Part shown: in pieces, positions 32,942 through 61,044 of the stretch
Numbering within the stretch: position 1 is the first letter of the stretch
Layout: each line of letters begins with the position of its first letter
Assembly (NCBI RefSeq): GCF_000299335.2
Contig: NZ_CP004387.1
Span: forward strand, 496,001-560,000
Length of the DNA stretch: 64,000 bases
Direction: 5' to 3'
From: Isoalcanivorax pacificus W11-5
GTDB lineage: Bacteria; Pseudomonadota; Gammaproteobacteria; Pseudomonadales; Alcanivoracaceae
The notes under the pieces: model-generated
Seen by the model: only the letters and a program-made list of their open reading frames with translations
Told to the model about the DNA's origin: nothing
Databases searched by the model: none
Translations under genes and position numbers: made by a program

Positions 32942-32942
32942 G

Positions 32943-36013: not shown

Positions 36014-36421
36014 CCTTGCCTCTTTTTATGGTGCCGAGCTGGTGATAAATGCCGGAAACAGCTTTTCAGGGTGGAGGTTGGTCAATATCCGTCGTGATTT
36101 GGGTTGTGCTGTTGGCGGCTTCGTGGGAGGGGAGTATTGGTGGTGGGGGCGTCAGATGGTGTCGGAGGTGCTGTAGAAGGCTTAGCTACATTCAGTTTCC
36201 GAGCCGTCATGCTGTCGCTACTATCAGCTGTGCATCACCAGTTCCGCCAGCTGACCAAGACCCAATGTGGCCTGGCCTGGGAAAACGCCTCAGAGCAAGG
36301 AACCTCCCTGCCATACTTATTCATGATGTCTAGTTGAGCGAAAAAGCCTCATCTCGGATTCGTTCAATCTCAAATTGATCATGGGTAAAATATCGACGAG
36401 GAAGTTTTTTCAATATGTGCC
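36014..36421. other. Junction region left of the island
   Basis: About 400 bases between the PKD gene and the last island gene; composition shifts here from GC-rich to AT-rich. On the minus strand, directly behind the island operon, a stop-terminated frame (about 36419-36330) reads like a natural protein fragment (starting HILKKLPRRYF and ending DEAFSLN) but has no ATG. The plus-strand frame at 36104-36337 has a protein-like tail (HHQFRQLTKTQ) I cannot assign. Both may be scraps left at the insertion boundary. No T-rich terminator was found. Confidence 0.4.
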
Positions 36422-39400
36422 TCAATGTCCATGACTTACCCCTGAAATCGAGATTGTGTTCGCTCCCGAGTCACCGGTGAGGTACATCCGCAATGCGTAT
36501 AGCAGATCCGGTGTATTGCGGAACATTTCCGGTTTATCAATTTGTAGGCTGATTCGGGATTTAAGTTCAATATCTTTATCGATCACTATCCTTGAAACCT
36601 TGTCTACCAAGGTCACATACTTTTTGGTCACATCCTTGTCGGGGGCTAAAATCATTCTGAAATTTCCACCCTCAATCCCCCGGCTTCGAAGGAGCGCAAG
36701 AAGAAGTTCCAAATGCTTACAAAGGGTTGCTATCTGATAGCTTTCGCCGTCAGCAACAATCTTATGGAAGTCAAACTCGAGACAACCATATAAGTTCCTG
36801 GTTAAAGCCCCGAGCTCCTCTTCAGTCAATTTGTTGATCAGCGTTTTAGAACGCCAAAGGGCTATCGACAAAACCTCCATGGTAATGGATCTGGTCAGGC
36901 CCTCATTATCAATGGGGTCGATGACATTCTCCAACAGCTCTTGTTGGTATGGCAGTTCGGCATTACCGATGGCGAAAGCAATATTCTTGTGGTACCTCCG
37001 CAAAAGCTTTTTATCCTTCACAGCATCAAGGAGCCGGGAACCAACAATCCCGGGGGCATCCTTATGTAGACAACACAGAAAGAAGAAAAGCTCCTCTTTA
37101 AGGGTGTCCGGCATATTTTCTGACTCAATTATTGATATGATTTTTTGAGTACCTTCGAATATCGCGTTTCTAAAATGGTCAGGCACATCTGACTCTGAAA
37201 GGGAGTGGCCATGATTCCAGATGGTTAATGCTGGAAATCGGAGGCTGAAGATTCCTTTTTCAGCATACTCCATGGTTCTGGAAAGCTTCCGATTGATGGT
37301 ATCCTGTGCCTTCTCCTGGAGCCGCGAGGGTAAGCTCTCTGAAAATGATATATTTGACCCGGAAGGACCTTTTTCATTAGCAAAAACATCCAGATAAACC
37401 GGGCATCCTTCATATAGGGAATTTTCATCAACAGCGTCAATAAATTGAGAACTGTGGCAAAACACACTCTCTCCATCAACATTGACTCGGCAATAGTATT
37501 TCCCGGTACGGTCAGTGGTTCCCCATTCCAAATAGCCGACTTTTCTTTTATTCAGGATAGATTTAAATTCCTGTTCATAATCGAACGAGATCAGATCATT
37601 CAAGCCTGCAATTTTGGAGCAACACCAGTCCAGAAGGTCAGAGAAGCTTTTGCCGTCTTCTTTCGGGAATTGCTGAAAATCGGACCAGCTTCTACGGGCT
37701 GGAAAATCTGGAACCGGCAAATTCTCAAGATCGGCTGCCTCACCCTCTGATGCTGAGCGCCATTCAACCCGAATAGATTTAAAACCTGCTTCCGCTGAAT
37801 CCAACGGAATGAATTTCAATTCGTATGGATCATCCGCTCCATAGGTGTAGGTCATCTTCAGCTTGCAGGCCGTGGCCTTCTTCAAAGGGAATGCTGGCGA
37901 TTTCAGGTATGCAACAAACTGCAGCTCTTTATTGCCTTCTCCCTGCTGCAGAGGAAAACTGTAATGCGTTTGTCCGGCTGGAAGAGTAAATGACTCTTCT
38001 ACTGGTATATTCACAGTTCTGCCACGTTGCGGTGTTACTGTCGCATCTTTTACCAAATAGAAATTTTCAAAGTGCCCATCACGTACAATTCGGATCGACA
38101 GCTCTGGAAGATGATCACGCCAAAGGGCAATGTCATCAACTTCCTCCTGCCATCTGTTTAAAGTCTGGCAGCCTTTAATTGGTGACCATGCAGACCCCAG
38201 CCACTTGTAATCCATTCGCACATCAGGTTTCCTGATTGTATCCTCAAGAGGCAGGATAAAGACACCAACTCCACGACAATCCCTGTTTGTAGAGTTCAGG
38301 CAGTCACTGATAGAGTAGTTTGATAATATGTTGAGATCTAAATCCTGAGTCAGAGCCTCCCGAATAGAACCTGGTAAGTGATACCAGTGGTCATCTTTCA
38401 CAAAGGATACTTCCCCTGAATCACTAGCTAAACCATCGAAGCCGAACAAATGGAGGAGTTCTTCAGAAGTCTGGCAGCCATTACGGTCAAGATTGCGGGC
38501 CATGGCAGCATGAATGCCTCTGTTTGGCACAATAACCGTAGGATGTCTTTCCCAGCTCATTCCTTGTGTCTCAGGCAATATTTCGTCCAGCTCTTTTTGG
38601 TATATTGCCTGAACTGGGGTTATTGAAATGCCGCCGTCAAATGAATCAACCACCAGCACAAAATCATTCTCTCGGACTCTGTCCTGTACAAATTTCTTCG
38701 ATGATTGCCATGCAAAGATAGCAGCTATGCTTTTGGGAAGCGGTGTCGATTCATCAAAATAAAAATTGACGCTTTTTCTTATTCCCTCCAGATCGAAGTC
38801 ATTGCCCCAATCAGGGACAAGATAGGTCAGCTTGTCTGCCTTGATATAGTCACTCAACTTTTTAGTAAAAAACATCGATGCACTGCTTTTGGTGGCATCG
38901 GGCAGTGTTGAGCTATGTGAAAAGAGGCTCCTCATGCTGACCGTTTCAATATCGGAATGCAGGGCGATTGATTTTGCGTAACCGCAGTCTATTACCACCC
39001 CTCCATTAATATTTAAAGGCCAGTGCTGCTGAAGCAACCTGAACGGCAGGTGCGCCTGAGAGCCTGTATTATTCGTGAAGGTCGGACGGATAGAACACAG
39101 GTCAACAACAGAGCTATCCATCCGTATTGGACCACTTTGATTATTTGTCGGCGCAGAATATTCAAACGGGGCATCCGAGACTAATGACAGTATCGTCTTC
39201 GGTATCTCTTTGAGAGTTGTTGGCTCTATTTTTAATTTCTTTTTTGCGCCCTGAGCTTGCTCAATAACAAGATTCCCGGAAACGATCTGTAATAAATACT
39301 TATCCTCACCGACTTGTATCTTCCATTTATCACCCGTCAAATTGAAATCGACAGGGATGATTCCTGCTGGAAGGGTTATGTCGTCAGCACATTTGCCCTG

Positions 39401-40561
39401 TCGGTTACTGCCGATAACAAAAGAAACTTCATCTCCAGCGGATAGTGAATTGATGTCTAATTTTCGGGATAGATTGTCTGGTTTGAAATACAGGTCTCTT
39501 CCATCATCAGAGGTGATAAACCCGAATGACTTATCGGGCTTTATGAACTTTATCTTCCCATTGATATTTGAGTCGAACGCAGGAAACAAATATCCCCGAA
39601 CGGGCAATTCTGGAGCTATAGAAAAATTATCATAGTCGAGACCGACCGGCTGCTGAACTGTTCGAAAACGACCACTATCGTTAAGCAAGGAAAGGGTATT
39701 CCAATAAATAACGCTGAGGATATCGCTATGGACTCTTTTGCTGTCCCCTGTGATCTGCTCGTCTATGGTTTGGAGCCAGAGCCAACCATCCCAGACTTTT
39801 CGATAACGCTTATCCTGAAGAAGCGTGTTGTTGGGCGGAAGATTGCCCCAATTGCCAATTTCAGCGGCATCTTCAGTTCTAAGCCAGCGCTGGAGGGAAA
39901 CAAGCAGTTCCTCACAGGTCTCTTCTGTCGCTGCAGACAAAGCATACTGTCTTTCAATCAGAATCTGCTCCAGCCGGAATAGAAAAGCTCTTAATAGTCG
40001 GTTTTCTGCCGCATCAACACTGGATCTCCGCCTGACAGCCTTCATATAAGGTTTACCGGAAAGCTTCTCGCGGAGTGTTCTTCCCGGCTGACGGCTGAGC
40101 CATTGAACACTGTTGCTGTCAACCTCTCTTGCCGCATGTATTGGCAGCATGGCATGCTCTCGTAATATCTTATCCCGAGTATGCTCCATGATTGCCAGAA
40201 CAGCTTCCTTCGTATGCGACACAATTCGATAGATACGGTCTTTTATCTCACCCTCAGGTGACGCATCCTGCAACGATTTCGCCACAGCATCCAAAAAGTC
40301 GACAATGCCGGTATGTAGGGCAGGCCCGGAAACAGGGTCGAAGCTCGATACTTCCGTCAGCCAGCTGCGCAGCATCAGCATCAAAAGAGCCTTGGCCTTT
40401 ATCTCATCCTGACCGTTTAACGCCTTGTAAATAGACTCGACAGAATCAATAGCACCGATGGATGGTTCAACAGTCTGGGCAGTCGCATGTTGACGTTGAT
40501 GGTAATCGGACAGCATGCGCTTCTGTCTGGCTGTTAGCTTATATTTCTGCGGTTCCGCCAT
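36422..40561 (-). CDS. 1379-residue multidomain protein with cold-shock-like and Hsp70/actin-like segments
   Basis: Last gene of the island operon, starting three bases after the AAA-ATPase stop. No family is recognised over the full length. Residues about 160-205 hold a helical block with RRRSSVDAAENRLLRAFL, a motif also seen in DUF2357-type proteins. Residues about 334-397 read as a cold-shock/S1-like beta barrel (GKIKFIKPDKSFGFITSDDG). Residues about 515-660 resemble an Hsp70/actin-type ATPase: GGVVIDCGYAKSIAL fits phosphate loop 1 and LVVDSFDGGISITPVQAIY fits phosphate loop 2. A beta-rich region and a second barrel-like stretch (YLEWGTTDRTGKYYCRVNVD) follow, then a helical C-terminus. A scaffold or chaperone that binds nucleic acid is an inference. 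Confidence 0.75.
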   Translation of the reverse strand: MAEPQKYKLTARQKRMLSDYHQRQHATAQTVEPSIGAIDSVESIYKALNGQDEIKAKALLMLMLRSWLTEVSSFDPVSGPALHTGIVDFLDAVAKSLQDASPEGEIKDRIYRIVSHTKEAVLAIMEHTRDKILREHAMLPIHAAREVDSNSVQWLSRQPGRTLREKLSGKPYMKAVRRRSSVDAAENRLLRAFLFRLEQILIERQYALSAATEETCEELLVSLQRWLRTEDAAEIGNWGNLPPNNTLLQDKRYRKVWDGWLWLQTIDEQITGDSKRVHSDILSVIYWNTLSLLNDSGRFRTVQQPVGLDYDNFSIAPELPVRGYLFPAFDSNINGKIKFIKPDKSFGFITSDDGRDLYFKPDNLSRKLDINSLSAGDEVSFVIGSNRQGKCADDITLPAGIIPVDFNLTGDKWKIQVGEDKYLLQIVSGNLVIEQAQGAKKKLKIEPTTLKEIPKTILSLVSDAPFEYSAPTNNQSGPIRMDSSVVDLCSIRPTFTNNTGSQAHLPFRLLQQHWPLNINGGVVIDCGYAKSIALHSDIETVSMRSLFSHSSTLPDATKSSASMFFTKKLSDYIKADKLTYLVPDWGNDFDLEGIRKSVNFYFDESTPLPKSIAAIFAWQSSKKFVQDRVRENDFVLVVDSFDGGISITPVQAIYQKELDEILPETQGMSWERHPTVIVPNRGIHAAMARNLDRNGCQTSEELLHLFGFDGLASDSGEVSFVKDDHWYHLPGSIREALTQDLDLNILSNYSISDCLNSTNRDCRGVGVFILPLEDTIRKPDVRMDYKWLGSAWSPIKGCQTLNRWQEEVDDIALWRDHLPELSIRIVRDGHFENFYLVKDATVTPQRGRTVNIPVEESFTLPAGQTHYSFPLQQGEGNKELQFVAYLKSPAFPLKKATACKLKMTYTYGADDPYELKFIPLDSAEAGFKSIRVEWRSASEGEAADLENLPVPDFPARRSWSDFQQFPKEDGKSFSDLLDWCCSKIAGLNDLISFDYEQEFKSILNKRKVGYLEWGTTDRTGKYYCRVNVDGESVFCHSSQFIDAVDENSLYEGCPVYLDVFANEKGPSGSNISFSESLPSRLQEKAQDTINRKLSRTMEYAEKGIFSLRFPALTIWNHGHSLSESDVPDHFRNAIFEGTQKIISIIESENMPDTLKEELFFFLCCLHKDAPGIVGSRLLDAVKDKKLLRRYHKNIAFAIGNAELPYQQELLENVIDPIDNEGLTRSITMEVLSIALWRSKTLINKLTEEELGALTRNLYGCLEFDFHKIVADGESYQIATLCKHLELLLALLRSRGIEGGNFRMILAPDKDVTKKYVTLVDKVSRIVIDKDIELKSRISLQIDKPEMFRNTPDLLYALRMYLTGDSGANTISISGVSHGH

Positions 40562-40564
40562 CTA

Positions 40565-43060
40565 TCAGTTCTCCGCATTTTCCTGACCGTTCACAGCCTC
40601 ATCATCTTTTAAGTAATTGGCGCTGTTCCAGATGAACTGCCCGTAACCAAACTCACAAGCCAAATCAAAGTCATCGATTATTGTATAGTCGTCATTCACC
40701 AGCTGAGTTCGAATTTTATCAAGGCAGTCCGATTTGGATTTACCTCGGGTTTCAATGCCGCGCAACTTAGGCATGACCTTCTGAACAAGCTGGTCTTCAA
40801 ATGCGACTTTCATCGCTTTGACCAAGCTTGCGTCATCGTTGTTTCTCTGAGCTTCCAGCACATCAGGATAATTGGACATGTAGTATTCGATGGATTGCCA
40901 CACCCTGTGCCCCAGAGCTCTGCCAACCTTGGACAGCGAGGTGTTCATGTCTTCGATGAACCCCTTGAATGGCAAAATCTGATCGTCGTTGAATTTACTT
41001 TCTCTGCACCACCAACTCTCCCACAGTTTACGAGACAGCAGAGGAGCTTGATCGCCCAACGGTTTCAGCTGACGGCGTCTTTCAAGGGTGGTCGGCCGGG
41101 GGAAGTTGATTACAATCCCTCGATCAAGGACCTTGTCTGAGAGGGATTTGGTTGTCTCGTCCTGATTCATTGTTCCAGCCCAGAGCACATTTCTCCCCAG
41201 GGGCAGATCATAGTGTTGGATACCTGCGCCCAGCTTAACTTCAAGGCTCGGCACCTCATTGCCTTTGCGACCGCGCCGCAGCTCAAGCTTGCTCAAGAAT
41301 TCCGCAAAATAGAGTTCGACATGGGCAAGGTTCATTTCATCCATCAAAATCAGACTCATGACATCTTCAAGGCCGAGAGGATATCCTTCAGCTTGAGCCT
41401 TTTGACTTTGTGCCAATAAACGCAGAACAGGCTGGGCATCAAACTTGTTATCGATAGAGTTGAAGAAACCAAGCATGGATTCCTGACTGTCCCAGTTCGG
41501 TTGCACGGACAGACTCAAAAAGTTTATGCCGCCAAAATGTGAATATAGCCTTGGCAGCTCGGACTTTCCGGTTCCGCTTACGCCTGCCAGAACAGTCATA
41601 GGAGACCACTCTGAAGTTTTTAGAGCGGTGTGGAATGCGTGTAAAATTCGCCGTGGGAATCTCAGCCCATAATCGATGCAGGATTTACTGATCCCGTCCA
41701 GCCATTGAAGCTCTTCAACTTTATCCACCGCACGGGGCAGTTCCTTTTGAATGTATGGAGTTTCAATGTCCCGAATCCTTGCCTCACGGTCCTGTGCCCG
41801 TTCGTACGAGGACTGTAAACGTTTAAGTTCCTCCATCAATCGGTTATTGTCGGCATCCACTGATTCAAACCGCCTCAGCAGAGATTTGTTTTTATCGGTC
41901 AGTTCCGCTACCTGCATTTCAAGATCCGACTGTGCGCGTGCTGAACTTCTGAGAGCCTCATTTTCTTCAGAGAGTCGCTCACAGGCCAGCTGCAGTTCGC
42001 TCTGTTCGGACTTCAAGCGATCAAAAGCTTCCCGCATCTCCTGTGTTGGGCGTGTGGCAAGGTCATCGCGCAGCTTTTTAATTTCCTCTTCATAGGTTTT
42101 CAGTTTCAGTAAAACATCGGCTGGGTCTTCATCACCGAGCTTATGCTTCAATTCTTCAAAGTTTGAAATTAGAGCACTGCTCGTTTTGATAGATTCTCTC
42201 AAACGTGCAATTTCATCATTAAGCGCAGACTTCTCATTCTCGAAAGATTGCTTCCGTTCAACAACCTTGGCATCCACCTCAACGTTCAAATTAGCTTCTC
42301 GTTCCTCAAGGCGGTTTTTGCTGGATTGAAGGCGCTGCTTTTGATACTCAAGCTCATCCTTGAGTTCATCAAGCTCAGCCTGATCCTTCAGGAGAGCCTT
42401 TCTTTTTTGTTCGAGCTCATCCTTTTCCTGTTGAATCGCCGCCTCATGAACTTTCAGTCTATCAGCTATCTCTTTCTCCAAGCTTGCTATTCTGGATGTC
42501 CTCTCCTCCGAAAGTTCTTTTTCAATGGCAGTCAGAGCGTTTGCCCGTTTTGACTCCAGCTCCTTTTCCTGTTCTTTCCGAAGATTGAAGAGCTCGTCAT
42601 CAAGCTTTGCCCGGGCATCTGCATACCCATTGTCCCTTTGGATTTCAGCCTTTTGTACCGCCATCTCTCTCTGTCGCAATTTTTCCTTTTCGCTTTCAAG
42701 AGATTCCAGCTCGCCCACGCACTTAGCTTCCCGCTGTTCCAATTGTTTTTTGAATGCTGCGAACTTTTCCTCAAAGAGTTGCGGAAAGCCGTTTTTTGCC
42801 TGAAGCTCCATCTCTTCAAGATGAACGCGTTTGTCATTCAGCTCCGCTTCTTTTTTGGCTGTCGCGTCTTTAGCGGCCTTTAACGCCTGTTCCCTTTGGG
42901 CAATAACCGTTTCTTTTTGAGTCAGAGAGTCTTCCAATTCCTTCAGTTCCTGCTGTTTATTCAGGAGGCCAGCCTCTGTGACATTCATTGTTTTATCGGC
43001 CTGATCTGCCTGTTCATTATCGGCAGAAGACTGGGCGCTCTGCTTGTTCTTGTTGCCCAT
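40565..43060 (-). CDS. Coiled-coil McrB-like AAA+ NTPase
   Basis: An 831-residue protein. Residues about 30-430 are almost continuous heptad-rich coiled coil (Glu, Lys, Leu, Gln). From about 450 comes an AAA+ domain of the McrB/MoxR kind: Walker A GVSGTGKSE (493-501), Walker B LILMDEMNLAHVE (570-582) and the phrase FAEFLSKLELRRG, close to McrB-type GTPases. The sensor/arginine region WAGTMNQDETTKSLSDKVLDR is also McrB-like. No McrC is encoded nearby, so the coiled coil may take over subunit bridging. The ATG overlaps the previous stop as TAATG. Confidence 0.88.
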   Translation of the reverse strand: MGNKNKQSAQSSADNEQADQADKTMNVTEAGLLNKQQELKELEDSLTQKETVIAQREQALKAAKDATAKKEAELNDKRVHLEEMELQAKNGFPQLFEEKFAAFKKQLEQREAKCVGELESLESEKEKLRQREMAVQKAEIQRDNGYADARAKLDDELFNLRKEQEKELESKRANALTAIEKELSEERTSRIASLEKEIADRLKVHEAAIQQEKDELEQKRKALLKDQAELDELKDELEYQKQRLQSSKNRLEEREANLNVEVDAKVVERKQSFENEKSALNDEIARLRESIKTSSALISNFEELKHKLGDEDPADVLLKLKTYEEEIKKLRDDLATRPTQEMREAFDRLKSEQSELQLACERLSEENEALRSSARAQSDLEMQVAELTDKNKSLLRRFESVDADNNRLMEELKRLQSSYERAQDREARIRDIETPYIQKELPRAVDKVEELQWLDGISKSCIDYGLRFPRRILHAFHTALKTSEWSPMTVLAGVSGTGKSELPRLYSHFGGINFLSLSVQPNWDSQESMLGFFNSIDNKFDAQPVLRLLAQSQKAQAEGYPLGLEDVMSLILMDEMNLAHVELYFAEFLSKLELRRGRKGNEVPSLEVKLGAGIQHYDLPLGRNVLWAGTMNQDETTKSLSDKVLDRGIVINFPRPTTLERRRQLKPLGDQAPLLSRKLWESWWCRESKFNDDQILPFKGFIEDMNTSLSKVGRALGHRVWQSIEYYMSNYPDVLEAQRNNDDASLVKAMKVAFEDQLVQKVMPKLRGIETRGKSKSDCLDKIRTQLVNDDYTIIDDFDLACEFGYGQFIWNSANYLKDDEAVNGQENAEN

Positions 43061-45204
43061 TAGAAGACCTCCGTTATTATCTTGATTGCTTTGAATACAT
43101 TGTTTTTCAACGACTCCATGTCGTCCCGTGAAAAGTCAGATTGCTGTTTATTGCCGTGTCCACGCAGTTGGATCAAATTGGCAACAAAATCAACGAATTT
43201 TGAATCTGATTTTTGCATATCGATCAGTTCACTTTCTGATCCCAATAGGAAAACCGCAAGAAGGTGAGCTCCCAGAGTTGTGCTTGAGCCCTGAACAGCA
43301 CGATAGAGTCGTTTGGTATTTACGGTGCTGATTTGTTCGGGGATGGCATCAGGCGCAGGATAAAACCCGGATTGAACGATTTTTTCAATCGCATCATCCC
43401 TCAGGTTTGTTCGATTTTTGACTGATGATCTCCGGTCCTTGGCGACTTCAAACAACGACAGCTGCATAATGGACGCCAACAAATTTATGTAGCGCTGAAG
43501 CTGCTCGTTATCCAGATTCGTCCTCTGGCTTAAGATCGTTACTTTGACCAACTCTTCCCGTAACGACGGGGAAACAGCTTGAACAAATCCAAGCCCCAAT
43601 GACTTGTCCAGTTCGATCCTGGCCTTCAATCTGACCTGATCAATATCTCTTTCCTGCTTTGTTTTGGCTGTATAGGCATCTTCGGTTATATCCGGTATTA
43701 GCGACTGGATGAGCCGAGTGGTTCTATCGCGATAGCCCTCAAGGGTTTCCGGTGAAAGTTCAACATCGGTTGAGCTTCCATGGGATACCGGGTCCCTGAC
43801 TTCTTTCAGCGCATTTATAAAGGAGAGACATCCAGAGTCTTCAATGGCCAGATGATTCAGCGGATGGTTGGGATCATTTATCGCCCCGGCTATTGCCAGA
43901 GCCAGTAGCGGCTGCATCTCGGAAACACCACGGTCAACGGCTCTGATTTTGCCGGATTTCACTTGAAGAAGGGCCTTCACACTGTCCGAAACATCAAACC
44001 CAATCTTGGTGGCAAACGAGCGCAGTATCTTGTCATTTTCCCGGTAGGATTGTGACGAGAACAAGCGCTCCCAGTGAGTCACAGGGTTATCAGATACAAC
44101 AAATCGCAGCGCCCATTCTATGGCTTCATACAAGGCGACTACCGCCAAGCCGGTCAAACGGGCGAATTCCTGCTCATCATTGGATGAATCAACCTCAATT
44201 TTTTCAGCGTCTGACAGATACTCTTGTGCGCGTCGAAGTGGGCGTGCTATCCGTGGATATTTCTTCAATCCGTCCGTCGCTGAAGATTCATCCTCAGCCT
44301 CTTCATTGCTTTGGTCGGAACTCAGTCGGTCGATAACGCCTTTATTCTTCAAATCTATGACCCACTTCCAGTCCTGAGAAGTAAGGTAATTGGCAAAGCT
44401 TTCAGAGAAGCCAAAGCCGCATCCATCCGTCACCAAAAGGTCAGAATTGCCTATCTGGATAAGGACATTGCAATGCAAGTAAACCAGTTCCGGATTCTCA
44501 TGTAAGGATATGGCTTCAGCCATTGGCACCGGAGGCGGGTACTGATCGACACCTTGGTTCAACAGGGCATGCCGCTTATATTTCTTCTTAAACTCCCTGA
44601 TGGCTCTGATGATATCGTTGGAATCAGGAACTGCTTTCCAGAAAGAGTCTTTTGATGGTCGTATCTGTCTTGCACTGACCCTCGACTTCTCATTGGTTGG
44701 ATTGATTAGAAAATCAATAAATCCGTTGTCACCAATACTTGAGATTTTTTTATAGCTCAGCTGCTCCGTGCTGACATAGGGAAGAAGCTTCCCGGACAGC
44801 AGATCTACAAACACTGTGGCCACGGTGTATTCCAGATTTCCGTCTGATTTATTCTGCCACTCGTTCAGAAGCTCCTGTCCATGCTCAGACAACTCATAGC
44901 GGTCATTTAAAAGGCCTAGCTGGTTGAGGCGATTCTGAATGAAGGCCACCAGTTCATTTTCCAGACAAGTGAGCAGCGCAATATTTTCCGTGTCGCCGGA
45001 TTCTATCTCGGTTATTTTCAAGACAGTTTCTTCAAACACATTGAGGCCGCTCTTTTTCTTTTGCGGAATAGAGATGTTGAAGGCGTGACATGGCCATAGA
45101 ACACTTTGTCTGGCGGCGATGTTCAATCCATCCAATCCTGTGCGGAAACTGATTACTTTAGGACGATGGTCTTTTGCTGATTTTTTTGTAGAGGGCGCAC
45201 TCAT
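43060..45204 (-). CDS. Island protein with HEPN-like RX4H motif
   Basis: A 714-residue protein with no family I recognise. The N-terminal third may be a nucleic-acid-binding or protease-like domain (KVISFRTGLDGLNIAARQS). The region about residues 350-500 is helical and contains LTGLAVVALYEAIEWALRF and, at 468-476, EVRDPVSHG, an RX4H motif as in HEPN ribonucleases. The remainder is helical (KARIELDKSLGLGFVQAV; LYRAVQGSSTTLGAHLLAVF). The start overlaps the helicase stop by four bases. An RNase toxin or an RNA-binding adaptor is possible. Confidence 0.65.
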   Translation of the reverse strand: MSAPSTKKSAKDHRPKVISFRTGLDGLNIAARQSVLWPCHAFNISIPQKKKSGLNVFEETVLKITEIESGDTENIALLTCLENELVAFIQNRLNQLGLLNDRYELSEHGQELLNEWQNKSDGNLEYTVATVFVDLLSGKLLPYVSTEQLSYKKISSIGDNGFIDFLINPTNEKSRVSARQIRPSKDSFWKAVPDSNDIIRAIREFKKKYKRHALLNQGVDQYPPPVPMAEAISLHENPELVYLHCNVLIQIGNSDLLVTDGCGFGFSESFANYLTSQDWKWVIDLKNKGVIDRLSSDQSNEEAEDESSATDGLKKYPRIARPLRRAQEYLSDAEKIEVDSSNDEQEFARLTGLAVVALYEAIEWALRFVVSDNPVTHWERLFSSQSYRENDKILRSFATKIGFDVSDSVKALLQVKSGKIRAVDRGVSEMQPLLALAIAGAINDPNHPLNHLAIEDSGCLSFINALKEVRDPVSHGSSTDVELSPETLEGYRDRTTRLIQSLIPDITEDAYTAKTKQERDIDQVRLKARIELDKSLGLGFVQAVSPSLREELVKVTILSQRTNLDNEQLQRYINLLASIMQLSLFEVAKDRRSSVKNRTNLRDDAIEKIVQSGFYPAPDAIPEQISTVNTKRLYRAVQGSSTTLGAHLLAVFLLGSESELIDMQKSDSKFVDFVANLIQLRGHGNKQQSDFSRDDMESLKNNVFKAIKIITEVF

Positions 45205-51391: not shown

Positions 51392-53148
51392 CGATGACGC
51401 CCTCCAGGTTGAATCATTTCTTCCAGCTGCCTGAACAGATTGTTACCCGATACCAACTGGAGGTTTTTCGAGTCGTCAATCTTCTTTCTTACGACTTTGT
51501 TTTTCGGGTAGAAACATGAGGCCAGAACGGCTCGGCCTTCAATTCCGCCAAAATAACGGACAATATTCTGGAGCTTCATGACATGCTCACTGTTCACATT
51601 GCCCGCCTTGCATTCGATGACATAGAGACGTCGCCCATCCGTGAAAGTAATATCAAGCTCCTGATAAGTATCCCCAAACAGGCTGCTCAGTTGTGCGCTA
51701 AAGCTTGATGAACTCTTGTCGGCAACGTCTTCTTTGAATGAGACCTCAAGGCCAATGCGCATATCCTTGATCAGGCCGACATCAACAAGGGGTTGAAGCT
51801 TCATGAAGGTGTATTCTTCAAACCATCCACCTGAAAGATATTGAGCAAAATCCGGCCAGTCTTTGAACTCAAAGTGTTTGGTGCCGACACTTATCTTCGC
51901 ACTTTTATCCTTGGAGAGCTTTGCGTAGATGTCGCCATTATGCAGTTCAAATGGCTGAAAGCTGTCGTTATAACGAGACAGCTCTCTATAGAGCCGTGAA
52001 ATTTTGGAACGCGCCTGCCAGAGCTCATTGGTCAGATTTTTCCGGTCAGGAGATTCAATGTCGGGTATATCAGCCCAATGGCCAGCCTTCGAAATAAACA
52101 GATTATTGCCGTTGAGCTGGATAAAGGTCTCTACCGATGGAATCAGTTTTGTCTCAACGGTCTTAAAGTCATTGAGATAAACCACCTGATTGTTCCGGCT
52201 GTTAAAATAGAATGGCGTCGCATTCACCTTGCGACAGGCGGCAAGAGCCCCCGCATACATCAACTTGGTTCCGCCCGTTAAGTTGAAGCCGATCTTCGCA
52301 TCGGCAGGCATTTTCGCGATCAGATCCAGAATCGTGGTTCGGACATTTTCAGGGTCATATGGGTCCACCGCAATTTCACCGTACTCAGCTTCTCCAAGAA
52401 ACTGTTTCATGACATCGGCAGGGAACTGTGCGGAATTCACAAAGATGTGTTTCCTGCTTGAAAACTGGATCACGCCAAGCAGGTTCGGCACCCGTTGTTC
52501 GCCGAACAGGTGAAAAATGGCATCATACTGATCAGGTTCCGCATCAGTTGTTCGAACCTGTCTTCCGTGCCATTCTAGCCACTCGTTCGGCAGTGCGATT
52601 CTTTCCGGAGGTCTTCCGGGTTGAGAAGATGCTATAAGGCGTTTTTTGAGAGTCGGATGCCTCAGGGCCGCAAAAGCCCAAACAAAAGCCATAACGGGAG
52701 TGCCCGGGCTAAGGTAGAGCGTAACCAGTTTTTCACCTTCAGATGCTGCGACCGTATTCAAAGATTGAGTCGCAGCCTCATATATGCCTTCTGTGTCATT
52801 GAGATGCTTCAGGCCCACGGGGTGAAAATGTACATTGACCTTTTTACCGGCATCCCGAAGCTGCTTTTCCAGCCATTGAGTAAAGTGGTTGTGTGCCTCA
52901 ACTGAGTTCGAGAACAAATCAATAATCTCTCTCGCAGCAGCAGGGTCAGAACCATCAGTGTTTTCTATTTTTTGTTGAAACCCATCTTTTCTGTTTGCGG
53001 TTTTATCCGGGTGCGTAAAGCCAAGGATGACCACATCGGTGTAGTCTTCCGCCAGCAAAGCTCCCAGAACGGGTCCGGTTGTCTGTTCCAGTCCAATTGA
53101 GGCCCTGAAATCAGTTATTCCGTACCATGTCATTAAATATTTATTCAT
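51388..53148 (-). CDS. CARF-domain PD-(D/E)XK nuclease (Card1/Can2-like)
   Basis: A 586-residue protein. Two Rossmann-type halves cover residues 1-345: LYLSPGTPVMAFVWAF (145-160) and FNLTGGTKLMYAGAL (288-302), the second being the ligand-loop signature of DUF1887/CARF proteins. The C-terminal nuclease has GGWFEEYTF (440-448), ELDI (497-500) and IECKAG (511-516), the same triad as in Card1/Can2 effectors. In type III CRISPR systems such proteins cut nucleic acid when bound to cyclic oligoadenylate; here no cas gene or CRISPR array is in the window. It overlaps its neighbours by four bases on each side. Confidence 0.88.
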   Translation of the reverse strand: MNKYLMTWYGITDFRASIGLEQTTGPVLGALLAEDYTDVVILGFTHPDKTANRKDGFQQKIENTDGSDPAAAREIIDLFSNSVEAHNHFTQWLEKQLRDAGKKVNVHFHPVGLKHLNDTEGIYEAATQSLNTVAASEGEKLVTLYLSPGTPVMAFVWAFAALRHPTLKKRLIASSQPGRPPERIALPNEWLEWHGRQVRTTDAEPDQYDAIFHLFGEQRVPNLLGVIQFSSRKHIFVNSAQFPADVMKQFLGEAEYGEIAVDPYDPENVRTTILDLIAKMPADAKIGFNLTGGTKLMYAGALAACRKVNATPFYFNSRNNQVVYLNDFKTVETKLIPSVETFIQLNGNNLFISKAGHWADIPDIESPDRKNLTNELWQARSKISRLYRELSRYNDSFQPFELHNGDIYAKLSKDKSAKISVGTKHFEFKDWPDFAQYLSGGWFEEYTFMKLQPLVDVGLIKDMRIGLEVSFKEDVADKSSSSFSAQLSSLFGDTYQELDITFTDGRRLYVIECKAGNVNSEHVMKLQNIVRYFGGIEGRAVLASCFYPKNKVVRKKIDDSKNLQLVSGNNLFRQLEEMIQPGGRHR

Positions 53149-55847
53149 AATTTTTCACCATTTACGTACGGACGGAACCAACTGACCTGATTCTTCAAGC
53201 GATCGGCAAAGACGGCGCGGTTGTCTGTATCGAGTCCTTTAAATTTTCCAATTGCTCCACTGACAAATGAGCCCGCATCGTCTTCATTCATGCAGAATCC
53301 GATGCGCATTTCAAAGAAGCTCAGAAGGTCTTTGCATGATGAATTGCAGCGCTTCCAGTTATCCGCAAAGGCGATCACAAATGTCCCATGCAGGGGGCCA
53401 TCCTCCAGGATTTTCTTTATGCTCTCTTGTGGTGAGGGCGGCTCATCTTTCTTCACCGGTCGAAAGCTCGCCGGTCCGGAGTGGAATTCCTTTGTAGAAT
53501 CCAGGCCGTCTATGATCAGGATTCTTTTGGATTTGTGTAATTCGTCGGGGATGTCGGTAAGGTTTAGCGAGGTAACACACTCGTGTTTTGAAACGGGTCT
53601 TTTCCCGGAGCCATCGAGATATTTTGAAGCACCAGCCGATACAATGGAGCGCCCGTTAAAGTAGATGATTTCATCGATGCCATTCTGAGCATCCAAGCTT
53701 TGAAGGATGGAGGCGAGCAGACCGTCGTGGATTGCATCGTTATAGCCGGATATCAGTAAATTCGATGACGGTCGGTTAACCAGTGTCAGTGAGAGCGGCT
53801 CAGCTTCAAAACTCAAACGCTCACCAAGGTGCAGTTGCACCGCCTCATGGCTTTTTGAGTTGAACCAATCAGCAGCAGGCATTTCCGGCAGACGCGAACC
53901 GTTGAATATTCTTGTTGAGCCGCAGTAACCACGCTGGTCTGCGATCTGAGTAATCTTGTTAATGTGATCCTTGCACAGCCCACGATCGGCAAATGGAATC
54001 AGAAACCGTTGATTTGCCGATTTTGCCCCGTTGGAATTGTTAATGATCCCCTCCGGAGGGCTGCTCAATTTGGAAGCCTCCCAGTTGCTATTGCCAAGAA
54101 TCATCGCGGAATCTTCCTCGCTGCAGGCAAGGGCAATCCGGCAGCCGATCTGGCTTATCAGCTGGCCCATTGAAAGAGACTGGATTCCTTTCAGTGTCTG
54201 GGTGGCCAGCAGCACATGTATGCCGTAGGCCCGTCCTTGCCTCAGCAGCTGGTTCAACATTTTCTCTGCGGGTTCGGCCACTTGCCGCCCCTCAGAAAAC
54301 AGGATCTGAAACTCATCGATAATCAGCAGGACACGCGGGAGCTCGGCTGCTGAAGATTCCCTGTATTCATAAAAATCGCGGACAGACCGGCTTTTGAACT
54401 CCTGAGCCCGTTTTTCAAGCTCCTCGGTCAAATGCGCCAGAACAGTTACCCCGTATTCAGGGTCACTCTCTGTTGCCACCAGTTTTGCCTGAGGAAGCGG
54501 AGGGGAAGCATAAACACTGAATTCCGTACCCTGCTTGTAATCCAGCAGGTAGATATTCAACTCCGAGGGTGAATAGGTGTGGCAGAGGCTATGAATCAGA
54601 ACATGGAGTAAATTTGATTTTCCGGAGCCTGAACGCCCCGCCAGAAGAACATGGTGCTCTGTATTCACCCCGCCGATAGAGAAAGGAACGATCTCGCCTT
54701 CCGAAGTCCAGCCGATCGGCACCTGTACACCCTGAACAGCGTCGTGACCCCAGTAGTCCGAATTGCACCAGAGGTCAGTCAGACTCTTGCTGAATTTCGC
54801 GCTCTGTTCATATCGGTCCGATATGGATGCCAGAAAGTCGGTCAGCTCAGAACGTCCGGGCCAGAACTCCTGTTCCTCCACAACACTGATTTCAGAGACA
54901 TGCTTGGTCAGTATCTCTGCCGGAACAATGGAATCCATTCTCTTGGAATATTTGTCTATCGCGGTGCGCAGCCCCGTAAACTTGCGGTCCTCCAACCGAC
55001 TTTCATCAATGGTCAACACCGGAAGCACGCCGCAGGCAGGTCCATGTTCCAGAAGGCGGCCAAGGTACCAGAGGCTTTTGTCCGTCAACTGTTCCGGCAC
55101 TCCGAAAATGAGCAACAGTTTATATGGTATGGGATTGCTGCTGTTTGCCTCGTTGTAGGCAGACCAGCTCTTGATCTCTCCCTTGAATTTATTCTGAAGC
55201 AGATCCTCAACATAGTCCGTTAACCGGGCCAGGGCATTTTCCAGTTCGTCCGACCGGGTCAGCAATCGCTGCTGGGGAAAGAGCCGTTTTACTTTCAACA
55301 GAGAAAGGAACGGGTCCAGAGACGTGCCCAGTCTCAGCGGATCTGCAGCGGTAATTTCAACATTGCCGACCGGCATGCAGTGCATCAGCCGAAGCATCAG
55401 CTGGTGAATTAACCGGTGTCCTGTAGTCTGGTCAGGCAGCCAGAGCGATTTCTTAAAAGGGAAAGGGATCAGCCGTGGGATATAACCTTTCCAGTTCTGA
55501 TAGGTAAGATACATGCGCCCGAATGCCAGGGCGTCAGGGAAACGCGTGCCCGTGTTGATATTTTCGACTGTTAAATCATTCAGATGCGGCTGGCGCTGGC
55601 GGACCTTTTTGCATAGTTCATCAAGATGTTTCAGGGCCGAAACCCATTCCTTCTCAAACTCCTGATTGACAGTGGCAAGCCGCTGTTTTCTGGTGTTGTA
55701 AGCTTCCGTTTTGAGTTTTTCGCCCGGGTAGTCTTTCTCAATGCGGTCAACCTTTTGAGCCCTTTGAGCAACGGCATGATTCAATGCACCAACTGCATCG
55801 AACAGACGTTTAAGCATGGACTCCCTGTTATTCCGACTCTTACTCAT
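53145..55847 (-). CDS. Soluble FtsK/SpoIIIE-type ATPase with three ATPase modules
   Basis: A 900-residue protein. The central module is intact FtsK/HerA type: Walker A AGRSGSGKSN (403-412), YLLDYKQGTEF, Walker B VLLIIDEFQIL (506-516), LLATQTLKGI. A degenerate module precedes it (residues about 130-330; YKLLLIFGVPEQL and LLEHGPACGVLPVL without a P-loop) and another follows (about 680-890; SNLLISGYNDAIHDG and RILIIDGLD). This three-module plan is that of EccC/EssC of type VII secretion, but there is no transmembrane segment. With the WXG100-like gene nearby, it may be a pump or translocase repurposed inside the cell. Overlaps are 8 bases upstream and 4 downstream. Confidence 0.9.
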   Translation of the reverse strand: MSKSRNNRESMLKRLFDAVGALNHAVAQRAQKVDRIEKDYPGEKLKTEAYNTRKQRLATVNQEFEKEWVSALKHLDELCKKVRQRQPHLNDLTVENINTGTRFPDALAFGRMYLTYQNWKGYIPRLIPFPFKKSLWLPDQTTGHRLIHQLMLRLMHCMPVGNVEITAADPLRLGTSLDPFLSLLKVKRLFPQQRLLTRSDELENALARLTDYVEDLLQNKFKGEIKSWSAYNEANSSNPIPYKLLLIFGVPEQLTDKSLWYLGRLLEHGPACGVLPVLTIDESRLEDRKFTGLRTAIDKYSKRMDSIVPAEILTKHVSEISVVEEQEFWPGRSELTDFLASISDRYEQSAKFSKSLTDLWCNSDYWGHDAVQGVQVPIGWTSEGEIVPFSIGGVNTEHHVLLAGRSGSGKSNLLHVLIHSLCHTYSPSELNIYLLDYKQGTEFSVYASPPLPQAKLVATESDPEYGVTVLAHLTEELEKRAQEFKSRSVRDFYEYRESSAAELPRVLLIIDEFQILFSEGRQVAEPAEKMLNQLLRQGRAYGIHVLLATQTLKGIQSLSMGQLISQIGCRIALACSEEDSAMILGNSNWEASKLSSPPEGIINNSNGAKSANQRFLIPFADRGLCKDHINKITQIADQRGYCGSTRIFNGSRLPEMPAADWFNSKSHEAVQLHLGERLSFEAEPLSLTLVNRPSSNLLISGYNDAIHDGLLASILQSLDAQNGIDEIIYFNGRSIVSAGASKYLDGSGKRPVSKHECVTSLNLTDIPDELHKSKRILIIDGLDSTKEFHSGPASFRPVKKDEPPSPQESIKKILEDGPLHGTFVIAFADNWKRCNSSCKDLLSFFEMRIGFCMNEDDAGSFVSGAIGKFKGLDTDNRAVFADRLKNQVSWFRPYVNGEKL

Positions 55848-56061
55848 GAGCCATGCTTCCTATCGATTGCAGTTCACCTGTTAGCTGATCAATCTCGGCG
55901 GCTCGGGTCTGAAACAATTCTCCCATTTGCTGAAGGCCGGAGATGTCCTGCAAAATGGGCTCGAAAACGTCTGAGACAATAGACTGGCCAAACTCGTCTC
56001 TGACTGTATCGGAAAATTTGCCCATCTGCTGTGAAGTCACATTAAAAAGATCATCAAACAT
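55840..56061 (-). CDS. Small helical protein (73 residues)
   Basis: A short protein from the ATG at 56061, which has GAGGAGG five to six bases ahead and sits in an 8-base overlap (ATGTTTGA) with the previous gene. The sequence (MFDDLFNVTSQQMGKFSDTV, then helical QMGELFQTRAAEIDQLTGEL) suggests a helical hairpin. It could be a second, divergent WXG100-like partner of the FtsK-type ATPase whose start it overlaps, but no WXG is present. Function unknown. Confidence 0.7.
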   Translation of the reverse strand: MFDDLFNVTSQQMGKFSDTVRDEFGQSIVSDVFEPILQDISGLQQMGELFQTRAAEIDQLTGELQSIGSMAHE

Positions 56062-56431
56062 TGGTATCCTCCTCTTCAAACGGTAGCTGGAGGACGACAC
56101 TATCAGTCTTTAATGCCTGCTCAACAACACCTGTAACGTCCGCAAACGATTCAGCCACATCGGCTGCAATAACCGTTTCGAGTTGCGGCTTGGCCATAAT
56201 GTAGTCGGACTTGAAATCGTCATCAGAGCATCTGACCTTTTCAATCAGCTTATGCCAGTATTCTTCCGACAAGGACAGGGAATACTCGCTACCTGTTAGC
56301 GAGATCAGTTCTTCTGTGAGCTGGTCAACAGAACTCATCTCACCTGCCTCCATCGCGTTCTGGAGCTTTGAGGAAAGATCCTGGGCCTTGCTGGTGTGTT
56401 CACTTGGTATCAGAGCAATTTTAATTTTCAT
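56054..56431 (-). CDS. Island protein of 125 residues, unknown
   Basis: A 125-residue acidic protein beginning MKIKIALIPSEHTSKAQDLS, with a short strand, two to three helices and an acidic end (PFEEEDTNV). I do not recognise the family. It overlaps the coiled-coil nuclease gene by 11 bases and the small helical gene by 8. The position between nuclease and FtsK-type genes makes an adaptor, chaperone or immunity role plausible. Confidence 0.65.
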   Translation of the reverse strand: MKIKIALIPSEHTSKAQDLSSKLQNAMEAGEMSSVDQLTEELISLTGSEYSLSLSEEYWHKLIEKVRCSDDDFKSDYIMAKPQLETVIAADVAESFADVTGVVEQALKTDSVVLQLPFEEEDTNV

Positions 56432-57749
56432 GAGTTACTCCGTTATTTGCATTAGAACCGGTCACCATGTCCCAGCAGGCTTTGTCGATCTCGTCTTTTG
56501 TCGGGAGCATGCCTATTAATGGCGATCCGGCACTCCGAAGGGCTTCACGCAGCTCTTCTTCCTGTTCTGGAGTTAAATCCTTGATGTCGCGTGAACATAC
56601 CGTCATCGACGCATTGGCTTCCTGATGTCCACCGGACTGGAATACCATGTGGTCTTTCTGAGAATAGAGATACGAAGCCCGGCCGCATTTCACTTCAATG
56701 GCGATGGAGCCTCCGGCCGGAGCACTCATACCTTCACCACGACCGAGAATAACCGGCACTTTGAGATCTTCGATGATCAGGTCGGTTTTGGTGAATCTGC
56801 CGTCCTCAAATGTGGTCCGGGCCTGCGTGTCCGCTTTATGTCCGAGGGGACTCAGCGCCTGTTCCACAATTTTTTCGCCACAATAGCCGCTCAGATTTCG
56901 GCGGATCTTAAGCTGAACCGCATGCCTTTCAGCAGGACCGTTGGCGGCTTCGAGCTGGCTTCTGTAGTCGGCAATCTTGGCTCTGAATGCCGGGTCACGA
57001 TCGGCGAGATATTCAAAATAGTAGCGCTGCTGTTCAACGGATAGATTCAGCCGTGAATGCAGCTCTTTTGGCGTAACCGGTTTATTGGGGTCCGGAGTCC
57101 ATTTCAACCATGAATAAAATTCTGCTGCTTGCGGGTGCGTATCGAGGTAGGCGTTGAGAGCTGCCTTGGCGCTTTCCAGTCGGGCTTTTCCTGTTTCAAG
57201 GTGAGCCGCAGCACTGGCAAGCCGGGCTGCACACTCCGTTTGAACTGTTTCCGCCAGCTGCGTTGCCATATCAAGACACTGCCGGGCCATTTCATTTCGC
57301 TGCTCCATCTGCATGCGATGGTCTTTTGCCGCTTCCAAAGCTTCCTCAGAAGCCGCAACAACAGATTCCGCTTCGGCGACCGAAGATTCTGCGGCGGCTA
57401 CATCGGCCTCTTCAGATGAACAGTTGGGCGGTTCATAGTTGCCGTCCTCATCATAGTTGCCACTCGCTTCGCAGGCGGAAAGAGATGAACAAGCGGAACT
57501 CAACTGCTCATTGGCTGAAGCAAGCTGCTCATTAGCCTGTTGCAGCTGCTGCCCGGCCTCCATTTCAGCTTCCATCGCAGCATCCAGCAGTTGAGCGCTG
57601 TTGTCGGCCTCCTGCTGTGCTTCGGCCAACTTGGCTTCAGCCGCAGCAATCTGGGCCTGACAGGCGCTCTCCATGGAGTCATAGGCCGACTGAAGTCCGG
57701 CAATTGCCTCCTCGAGATTCTCAACTTGTCCAACGGATACGTACGCCAT
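56421..57749 (-). CDS. Coiled-coil protein with C-terminal PD-(D/E)XK-like nuclease
   Basis: A 442-residue protein. Residues 1-200 are Ala/Glu/Gln-rich helices forming long coiled coils, broken near 92-115 by a Cys/Asn/Pro-rich loop. The C-terminal part (about 285-400) has a nuclease-like layout: YCGEKIVEQAL with a Glu, FTKTDLIIED with Asp323, and GGSIAIEVKCG with Glu352 and Lys354. The plan of helical presentation region plus nuclease tip recalls polymorphic toxins of WXG/LXG loci. It directly follows the WXG100-like gene (8-base gap). Confidence 0.8.
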   Translation of the reverse strand: MAYVSVGQVENLEEAIAGLQSAYDSMESACQAQIAAAEAKLAEAQQEADNSAQLLDAAMEAEMEAGQQLQQANEQLASANEQLSSACSSLSACEASGNYDEDGNYEPPNCSSEEADVAAAESSVAEAESVVAASEEALEAAKDHRMQMEQRNEMARQCLDMATQLAETVQTECAARLASAAAHLETGKARLESAKAALNAYLDTHPQAAEFYSWLKWTPDPNKPVTPKELHSRLNLSVEQQRYYFEYLADRDPAFRAKIADYRSQLEAANGPAERHAVQLKIRRNLSGYCGEKIVEQALSPLGHKADTQARTTFEDGRFTKTDLIIEDLKVPVILGRGEGMSAPAGGSIAIEVKCGRASYLYSQKDHMVFQSGGHQEANASMTVCSRDIKDLTPEQEEELREALRSAGSPLIGMLPTKDEIDKACWDMVTGSNANNGVTHEN

Positions 57750-57757
57750 TCCCCACC

Positions 57758-58027
57758 TTAACTCTGTAAATAATCTCTTAAACGTGAAGCCAGAGCGTGA
57801 AGATAAGGGACCTGTTCCGATGCGTTCGCCTCAAAATGAGACAGCTGCTGCACCAGCGCGTTATAGTCCTCTTCAAAACTCGCTCGCTTTTCATCCTGCC
57901 AGGTATCCCCAAGGGCACCAAAGCTATGATTCAAAACGTTAACCGCTCCATTCAACGTGTCGATGAACTGCGTCAGAGACTGCGCGAAACGGTCAAGTTC
58001 ATCAGGGTCGCCAATTGCCTGTGGCAT
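57758..58027 (-). CDS. WXG100-like small protein
   Basis: An 89-residue helical hairpin: a helix (DELDRFAQSLTQFIDTLNGA), a turn with DTWQDEKRASFEEDY in which W-x-D stands for the WXG turn, then a second helix. This matches the WXG100/YukE pattern of type VII substrates and partners. It lies second in the operon, 21 bases after the TerY-like gene. No other type VII membrane component is in the window. Confidence 0.82.
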   Translation of the reverse strand: MPQAIGDPDELDRFAQSLTQFIDTLNGAVNVLNHSFGALGDTWQDEKRASFEEDYNALVQQLSHFEANASEQVPYLHALASRLRDYLQS

Positions 58028-58048
58028 GATTTACCTCCAAATTTTTGT

Positions 58049-58759
58049 TTACCAGTAACCTTCATCGTCGGACGGAGCGGTTGTATTCCCGGCTGTGGCC
58101 GACTTGACACTGCCACCGTCCAGTTTGATCTCCGACGGGGCCGGTACCACGTTGGGGTTCTTGGACTGAGTACGCATGGTCACCGACATGGTCACTCGCT
58201 GGAAAAACTCATGCAGCTGCCCGGCGTTTTCCGCATAGAAAAGGTCATGGGGCGTGCCCTCGATAAAACGCTTCAGAACCGTCTCATCCGCATCACGTCC
58301 GATAGCCATTGCCATGCGGTCACATTTGGAAGAGCGTCCTTCGGAAATAAAGTCCTCCAGCGGCCTTTCCCAGCTGTCATTAGGCTGCCCGTCTGAAACA
58401 AGAACGATCGTCGGCCGGTAGGCACGGGACGGAGTGGTCTCCTTGTCCTCAATCATGGCCTTGGCCATCTTGAGGGCGGTTCCCATCGGGGTCATGCCGT
58501 TAGCCTGCAGACCTTGCCACTGCACCTGAGAAGCCTTGGTGTAGGGAACATGCAGTTCCACTTGGTTGCCGAAAGTGATGACGGAAACAAGAATCTCAGT
58601 CTCCATCTTTTCTTCCTGCGCAAAGGTATCCAGCATATCCTCGACGGCTTTGTTAAGGTTCTCGATTTTATCTCCGGACATACTGGAGCTGACATCCAGA
58701 AGCAGAACAACGGGAAGCGGTTTGGCGGTCGGGGTGGTGAATTCTTTAGGGTTGAACAT
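58049..58759 (-). CDS. TerY-like VWA protein 1
   Basis: First gene of the island operon, 236 residues. A complete MIDAS: LLLDVSSSMSG (DxSxS), GMTPMGTAL (Thr) and LVSDGQPNDSW (Asp). TerY signatures such as EKMETEILVSVITFGNQVE and MAIGRDADETVLKRF are clear. The C-terminal 45 residues are flexible. TerY-like VWAs bind or scaffold phosphorylated partners. Its start is preceded by CAGGACG and the 219-base region that must hold the operon promoter. Confidence 0.93.
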   Translation of the reverse strand: MFNPKEFTTPTAKPLPVVLLLDVSSSMSGDKIENLNKAVEDMLDTFAQEEKMETEILVSVITFGNQVELHVPYTKASQVQWQGLQANGMTPMGTALKMAKAMIEDKETTPSRAYRPTIVLVSDGQPNDSWERPLEDFISEGRSSKCDRMAMAIGRDADETVLKRFIEGTPHDLFYAENAGQLHEFFQRVTMSVTMRTQSKNPNVVPAPSEIKLDGGSVKSATAGNTTAPSDDEGYW

Positions 58760-61023: not shown

Positions 61024-61044
61024 GGTTTGGCCTCTGCAAGAGCT

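Follow-up and report, generated by a model that had tools for sequence, protein, structure and literature searches.

The closest described system to the locus analysed here is the Type III-A CoCoNuT, in the compound form that Bell et al. 2024 (PMC11090510) treat first of three. The available text of that article gives a CoCoNuT core of CnuH, CnuE, CnuB and CnuC with a TerY-P triad, to which the compound form adds a second VWA gene, an EssC-like ATPase, two WXG100 proteins, one of them with WxG, and, further, a coiled-coil D-ExK protein followed by a DNA-mimic-like protein, and a CARF-D-ExK protein; the EssC-like ATPase is described there as having an N-terminal coiled coil and a central ATPase site that alone is active. 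HEAT-like repeats in CnuC and SmpB-like, RelE-like and OB domains in CnuH are further features expected of the type. A stretch of 64,000 nucleotides from Isoalcanivorax pacificus W11-5 (contig NZ_CP004387.1, positions 496,001 to 560,000; hereafter the window, in whose numbering positions are given) carries an operon that is almost certainly a Type III-A CoCoNuT extended at its 5′ end by genes of the EssC-like kind. An earlier note on this DNA had called it an undescribed system and knew no named system with this set of genes. That description was rejected, because the operon type is already named in the text of Bell et al. (PMC11090510); the match is to a name, CoCoNuT, and not to a proven function, and the conflict or defence role proposed in the note fits the content and context of the operon, from which we infer it. 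The operon type is thus already known, and what appears to be new here is the variation of its third and fourth genes (slots 3 and 4) among relatives.

The operon runs from 58759 to 36422 as 14 consecutive open reading frames (ORFs), all on the minus strand, whose 13 junctions measure, in order from 58759, +21, +8, -11, -8, -8, -4, -4, -8, -4, -28, -4, -1 and +3 bases. The -28 junction depends on the longest CnuH ORF, and a start at the ATG of the ninth codon (by eye) would give -4; the other overlaps are of 1-11 bases and the largest gap is 21, in agreement with the same-strand run of tiny gaps and overlaps reported in the earlier note. All 14 genes start with ATG, provided that WXG2 starts at 56061 (its longest ORF begins with GTG at 56100). 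The G+C content per kb is 0.45-0.54 across 36-59 kb, as against 0.59-0.71 up to 36 kb and 0.62-0.71 beyond 61 kb, with an intermediate stretch of 0.55-0.57 at 59-61 kb, so that the locus is indeed AT-richer than its flanks. The domains named in the note (VWA, kinase, PP2C, CARF nuclease, coiled-coil D-ExK, superfamily 1 (SF1) helicase, McrB-like P-loop, FtsK/EssC-type ATPase and WXG100) were recovered, its HEPN-like motif turned out to be two motifs in CnuE, and its VWA proteins are supported by Pfam for VWA1 and by motif only, without a Pfam hit, for VWA2.

The first gene, VWA1 (58049..58759), encodes a TerY-like protein with a Pfam VWA match (4e-16) and a complete metal ion-dependent adhesion site (MIDAS; DxSxS, T and D present). 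VWA2 (50804..51391) is shorter, and by motif comparison its MIDAS is without the middle threonine, near the place of which some relatives have a T; the two VWA genes bracket the ATPase gene. WXG1 (57758..58027) is a WXG100-family helical hairpin (Pfam WXG100 2e-6) with W-x-D, not W-x-G: the W is found in 75 of 75 aligned sequences and a D at W+2 in 74, a tally that counts the window and duplicate loci and excludes L012, L032, L044 and proteins of at least 120 residues. Slot 3 (56421..57749) encodes a coiled-coil N-terminal domain (about residues 1-200) and a D-ExK nuclease-like C-terminal domain (D323, E352-V-K), and slot 4 (56054..56431) a small acidic protein (25 D+E vs 10 K+R) that is probably an immunity protein or inhibitor of slot 3. 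WXG2 (55840..56061), a second WXG-like small helical protein, holds the same place before the ATPase in relatives. The EssC/EccC-like ATPase of the FtsK superfamily (53145..55847), with an N-terminal coiled coil, has one intact Walker A/B pair (a single GxxxxGK[ST] at 404, and IDEF at 510). Its PDB sequence matches are 4nh0 (1e-33; deposited as FtsK/SpoIIIE, and which we take to be EccC), EccC5 (2e-23) and the DNA translocase FtsK (6.5e-9), and in both PDB and NCBIfam Type VII EccC/EssC proteins score ahead of DNA pumps. Relative to that of L011 and L017, with which identity is elsewhere about 90%, the window ATPase lacks about 160 residues of the coiled-coil region (55663-55779). The CARF-D-ExK effector (51388..53148) is Can2/Card1-like (PADLOC CARF4--CARF_PDDEXK 2e-291; PDB Can2 7bdv 2e-11; IECK at 511), in line with the 2xCARF-D-ExK protein expected in the extension, its first CARF domain being putative.

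The TerY-P genes and the core complete the operon. The PP2C-family phosphatase (50083..50811; Pfam PP2C_2 4e-42) is followed by a Ser/Thr kinase (48590..50086; Pfam Pkinase 5e-8) with a C-terminal zinc ribbon, the two CxxC pairs of which (CPGC at 343, CPYC at 364) are kept in relatives. CnuH (45201..48617), an SF1 (UPF1-like) helicase with Pfam AAA_11/AAA_12 matches of about 1e-30 and a PADLOC MkoA match, adjoins CnuE, as expected for Type III-A CoCoNuT. CnuE (43060..45204) has a winged helix-turn-helix-like (wHTH) N terminus and two HEPN motifs that align with relatives, R470-H475 (RxxxxH; RDPVSH at 470) and R681-G-H683 (RxH; RGH at 681), its wHTH and HEPN Pfam matches falling below the cut-off. 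The RxxxxH motif is found in 27 of 33 aligned relatives, being absent in L050-L054 and L064, and RxH in all 29 relatives that cover it. CnuB (40565..43060) combines a long coiled coil, recognised by eye plus weak SMC matches, with an McrB-like GTPase domain (Walker A at 493, NQDE at 632) that gave no Pfam GTPase match; N-x-D-E is kept in 6 of 6 covering relatives, and 5 others end before the motif. CnuC(D) (36422..40561) contains DUF2357 and cold-shock domains (CSD) by Pfam, the second CSD being a weak profile match (E 7e-4) located by profile position, and residues 470-1000 adopt an Hsp70 fold in the predicted structure (predicted local distance difference test (pLDDT) 82; Foldseek DnaK E 3e-13). 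Pfam and PADLOC searches gave no PD-(D/E)xK nuclease match in CnuC. Stand-alone Hsp70 genes of Helicobacter and Rhodococcus were considered as kin of the CnuC Hsp70 unit and rejected, as no support was found.

Relatives were collected by a genome-collection scan by alignment of three ATPases, from which the best 80 of 272 were used. At 44 loci (including E. coli, a plasmid and further genome matches) the ATPase and the kinase lie on the contig, and CnuH does too except at L046; the set omits L077, L082 and L092, which have no CoCoNuT core, and L001, L097-L101 and L143, which are duplicates or short copies. The 44 loci are partly non-independent, L011 and L017 being close to identical, as are several Pseudomonas-type loci, and many relatives' contigs end before CnuB or CnuC. 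A CnuC match was found in 25 of 25 searched records behind integrated loci, the Comamonas match being a 280-residue ORF only. The gene order, which by the terms of the earlier note would have counted against its reading if unique to this strain, is shared by loci of E. coli, Caballeronia, Vibrio, Pseudomonas, Erwinia, Lentisphaera and Planctomycetes, among others, and because the identical order recurs in many genomes, chance is no concern for the 14-gene order. Over 23 operons (the 27 loci with D-ExK and acidic genes minus L034, L046, L047 and L061), pairwise protein identities of the ATPase and CnuH are correlated at 0.97, a value reached by 0 of 999 permutations; the extension has therefore been inherited together with the core. 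In E. coli ET734 (L011), the single carrier among 5426 complete E. coli genomes, the operon is 90-94% identical to that of the window at the DNA level over aligned stretches and adjoins a BREX island as well as a MobH relaxase gene that is incomplete. At L011 2796-12812 and 33282-35982, the annotation has incomplete BREX genes near the operon, around IS1 and IS3 elements, and CnuB in two pieces. A Caballeronia plasmid also carries the operon, with an ATPase identity of 48%.

Viral contigs yielded 47 pattern matches, 0 confirmed, and none of the 194 phage records with a match spans 80% of the ATPase. In the class to which L054's genome belongs, the single match among 391 genomes was L054's own, and 2 of 167 genomes matched in the phylum of L059's genome, both with stand-alone cassettes. 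In Planctomycetota, the phylum of L041's genome, 36 of 343 genomes matched, and the three opened besides L041's contain no integrated operon. Planctomycetota often carry an EssC-like ATPase, mostly as an open frame of 1200-1500 residues, and L190, from the Planctomycetota sample, has WXG proteins and a slot-3 protein of the N-terminal domain alone. Bacteroidota loci L077, L082 and L092 have a related ATPase and a WXG protein beside PP2C or kinase genes; L077 and L082 also have, nearby, a candidate effector that is transglutaminase-like or, below the cut-off, lipase-like. In the phylum sample around Campylobacter L058, the ATPase copies L101, L111, L112, L113, L116, L118 and L120 contain internal stops, in line with the fragmentation in Helicobacter reported in the text of Bell et al. 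(PMC11090510).

Slot 3 is present on the contig in 41 of the 44 loci. It is of the D-ExK type in 35 (window uncounted), 27 with the acidic slot-4 gene (weakly in L061, E 6e-5) and 8 with no slot-4 gene. Two CoCoNuT operons, L058 (9e-21) and L124 (3e-20), have a colicin-DNase/WHH slot 3 followed by a SUKH-family slot 4, and three have an LHH slot 3 (L125, 9e-23; L126, 7e-23; L127, by eye), with SUKH_5 in slot 4 of L125 and L126; a SUKH-like gene is therefore next to the HNH-type slot 3 in 5 of 5 CoCoNuT operons (four by Pfam, L127 by eye). Polymorphic-toxin immunity is, in the available text of PMC3482391, dominated by SUKH and SuFu proteins. A UDG-superfamily C-terminal domain is found in L059 and, below the cut-off, in L056, and the slot-3 protein of L048, like that of L190, is reduced to its N-terminal domain. 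A profile of the 35 N-terminal domains from D-ExK-type slot-3 proteins matched 18 further ORFs at E<1e-3 (13 loci without duplicates), all adjoining WXG and ATPase genes, and also catches proteins with other C-terminal domains. Stand-alone cassettes in Helicobacter combine WHH with SUKH (by Pfam for L013 and L063, by eye for the others), and those of two Fibrobacter genomes have a UDG-superfamily domain 3′ of the ATPase. In L020, the remaining one of the 41 loci and of unknown slot-3 type, the DNA match to the window (blastn) stops at 57152, around slot-3 codon 199, and restarts at 56079, where WXG2 starts; the break implies that the C-terminal part of slot 3 and slot 4 were replaced inside an operon whose aligned DNA around the slot is otherwise 84-89% identical to the window. 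The new slot-3 domain of L020 has no Pfam hit and no plasmid match. From these comparisons, slot 3 appears to swap nuclease domains, usually together with the neighbouring probable antidote gene, like bacterial toxin-antidote cassettes, and it is likely that slots 3 and 4 form an effector and its dedicated inhibitor. No statement of slot-3/4 exchange was recognised in searches of open-licence papers, and part of it may already have been made by Anantharaman et al. 2012, who reportedly looked at these operons.

The CARF gene is, on sequence comparison, another exchange point. A second sequence break lies within it: in blocks of 50 residues, the window and E. coli proteins are 62-92% identical as far as residue 300 and 19-44% identical after residue 350. 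Of the close relatives, L011 and L019 have another allele of the C-terminal half of this nuclease (the same 19-44% after residue 350); before residue 300 the window and L011/L019 share 84-98%, bar one block of 54-62%. The CARF protein of L017 and L023 is similar overall (64-65%), and L020 shares the window allele.

Building on the gene set and order, motifs, Hsp70 fold, co-inheritance and slot-3/4 exchange established above, the explanation we favour, at somewhat better than even chances, is a Type III-A CoCoNuT antivirus operon whose EssC-like extension adds an ATPase-docked slot-3 nuclease blocked by slot 4. The complex of CnuB, CnuC, CnuH and CnuE would sense infection, its helicase, GTPase and Hsp70-like parts acting at aberrant RNA or ribosomes, and the CARF protein would do so through a cyclic nucleotide. 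The TerY-P switch (VWA protein, phosphatase and kinase-zinc ribbon) would set the threshold and gate release, with the HEPN RNases of CnuE and the CARF nuclease as putative effectors. The nuclease may be docked on the EssC-like hexamer, which is taken as probably cytosolic, through the WXG proteins and the N-terminal coiled coil of slot 3, while the slot-4 protein would block the nuclease. Upon activation the ATPase would strip or thread the complex and free the nuclease, and DNA damage would end the infection (abortive infection); this intracellular release by the ATPase is put forward tentatively, at slightly less than even chances. We see it as an evenly balanced matter whether the extension is, more generally, an intracellular polymorphic toxin-immunity platform, with a constant coiled-coil/WXG/ATPase dock and exchangeable DNA-attacking domains, each with its own inhibitor or none, by which an antivirus operon would renew its killing domain through cassette exchange.

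The same parts can be read in other ways. Slots 1-6 could be a Type VII-like export machine or contact weapon travelling with CoCoNuT, slot 3 being an exported toxin and slot 4 a protection of kin: in the text of PMC3482391, a Type VII toxin locus consists of WXG proteins, an FtsK-like ATPase, a toxin and SUKH immunity, secretion is suggested in that of Bell et al. (PMC11090510), and stand-alone cassettes occur in Helicobacter. However, the window ATPase has no strongly hydrophobic segment, its highest 19-residue hydropathy being 1.12. Type VII substrates would be expected to bear YxxxD/E, an export motif, which is absent from the last 28 residues of 75 of 75 WXG1 proteins and the last 30 of 40 of 40 slot-3 proteins; neither check included a positive control, and together the weak hydropathy and missing motif speak against classical export. 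Moreover, no Type VII membrane partner family is among the Pfam matches of the 14 genes, Gram-negatives are among the hosts, and the genes are co-inherited with a predicted intracellular nuclease system, which makes export quite unlikely. The ATPase might instead be a DNA pump that captures invader DNA for the slot-3 nuclease, after the HerA/FtsK capture idea. Its membership of the FtsK superfamily, the PADLOC likeness of its core to SspH and mad8, and the capture systems described in the text of PMC12839542 favour such a role, which we nevertheless regard as rather improbable: EccC/EssC proteins match the ATPase better than DNA pumps do (PDB, NCBIfam), and DNA capture needs neither WXG100 partners nor SUKH genes.

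For slot 4, Bell et al. compare the corresponding protein with HU-binding DNA mimics (PMC11090510, available text), and its acidity and its absence from 8 of the 35 D-ExK loci would suit a DNA mimic directed against HU-like proteins or phage factors and not against slot 3, the slot differences then being independent old acquisitions. We consider this unlikely, since all five HNH-type CoCoNuT operons have a SUKH-like gene there and not this protein, and Foldseek gives slot 4 no match to a DNA mimic, nor to anything else. A metal or stress response (Ter) unit without antiphage function is very improbable: TerY-P triads are linked to tellurite resistance in the text of Bell et al. (PMC11090510), but the operon has three predicted nuclease genes plus an McrBC-like core, and its E. 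coli copy adjoins a BREX island.

Several observations weigh against the favoured explanation of an antivirus operon with a docked, inhibited nuclease. No experiment on the operon type was found in searches of open-licence papers. The D-ExK loci without slot 4 (L050-L054, L060, L064 and the Planctomycete L039), 8 of 35, mean that slot 3 can do without an inhibitor. Over the 23 operons the D-ExK domain shows good conservation (mean identity 0.69 vs 0.52 for its own N terminus), unlike a fast-swapping toxin. L020 is a single contig of a metagenome-assembled genome, its new domain matches nothing and the slot-4 gene is missing. Coiled coils inflate profile scores, and the Helicobacter stand-alone slot-3 proteins mostly miss E 1e-3 (L013, 0.002). 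The AlphaFold model of slot 4 (pLDDT 88) has no PDB match by Foldseek at E<=0.001, and therefore neither an immunity fold nor DNA mimicry is confirmed. A segment above 1.6 hydropathy is present in the ATPase of 5 of the 44 relatives, the window kinase itself reaches 1.83, and the absence of a positive control applies to this check and to that for the export motif.

An insertion of about 29.4 kb (31855..61224) carries the operon and is missing from a sister genome of the same genus, as follows from the flanks being nearly joined there: in the sister locus L186, 20 bases separate the match that reaches window position 31854 from the one that continues at 61225, with 91% identity on the left (81-88% near the junction) and 98% on the right. 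Comparison of 31501-32100 with 60901-61400 gave no direct repeat of at least 11 bases. In a set of 57 related genomes that includes the source genome, a match along the full ATPase is confined to the source genome itself, the runner-up covering residues 356-583, and at E 1e-40 the ATPase matches 2 of 369 genomes of the class, again with its own included. The WYL regulator upstream (58979..59992, minus strand; Pfam WYL 1e-13), which the earlier note placed next to the operon, is real but was rejected as an operon component, as phmmer matched it in 2 of the 33 CoCoNuT loci that have over 1.5 kb of upstream sequence; this was a single-sequence search, which a distant WYL gene would escape. Also on this insertion, at 34079-36013 and 60392-60790, are a PKD-repeat protein and a PIN-domain protein. 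A 30-base element at 63971-64000 has dozens of whole or partial copies in the own and the sister genome, frequently in opposed pairs with a spacing of about 150-200 bases.

Here the published Type III-A CoCoNuT is represented in full, and its one-contig genome, the empty sister site and the 90-94% identical relative in a sediment E. coli make the locus well suited to initial experiments. If slots 3 and 4 are an exchangeable effector-inhibitor pair, the reason for having WXG proteins and a secretion-like ATPase in an antivirus operon could be tested directly, the question being whether the ATPase frees the nuclease inside the infected cell or exports it.

MkoA of Mokosh is a kinase-helicase. 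In PADLOC the region 43060-50086 resembles Mokosh, with CnuH matching MkoA (1e-78), the kinase weakly matching the kinase part of MkoA (1e-4) and CnuE matching MkoB (3e-9), but the operon encodes the helicase and the kinase separately and has an McrBC-like core in addition. Assignment to plain Mokosh or to TerY-P was rejected, as these explain too few parts. The H. pylori TerY-P/WxG/FtsK/LHH-nuclease cluster, in the text of the pan-genome paper PMC4978471, likewise has a TerY-P triad, WxG, FtsK, LHH nuclease, McrB-like and DUF2357 components, but no H. pylori cluster is complete according to that paper, the available text of which names no immunity partner. Type VII-linked polymorphic toxins (PMC3482391, available text) share WXG proteins, an FtsK-like ATPase, a variable nuclease C terminus and SUKH immunity, whereas the operon here is a predicted antivirus unit in which no membrane part was found. 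The main text of Bell et al. (PMC11090510), as available, does not use the name Mokosh, and the terms HNH, LHH, SUKH, immunity protein and polymorphic occur in it 0 times. For each of the 14 components of the Type III-A CoCoNuT in that text the operon has a counterpart or, for the second WXG protein and the DNA-mimic-like protein, a candidate, the order being compared by text only, and the motifs agree (NxD, RxxxxH, RxH, MIDAS pattern, zinc ribbon and single Walker A/B pair); it differs in the W-x-D of WXG1 (74 of 75 sequences) in place of W-x-G, and in the coiled-coil region of the window ATPase, which falls about 160 residues short of that in close relatives.

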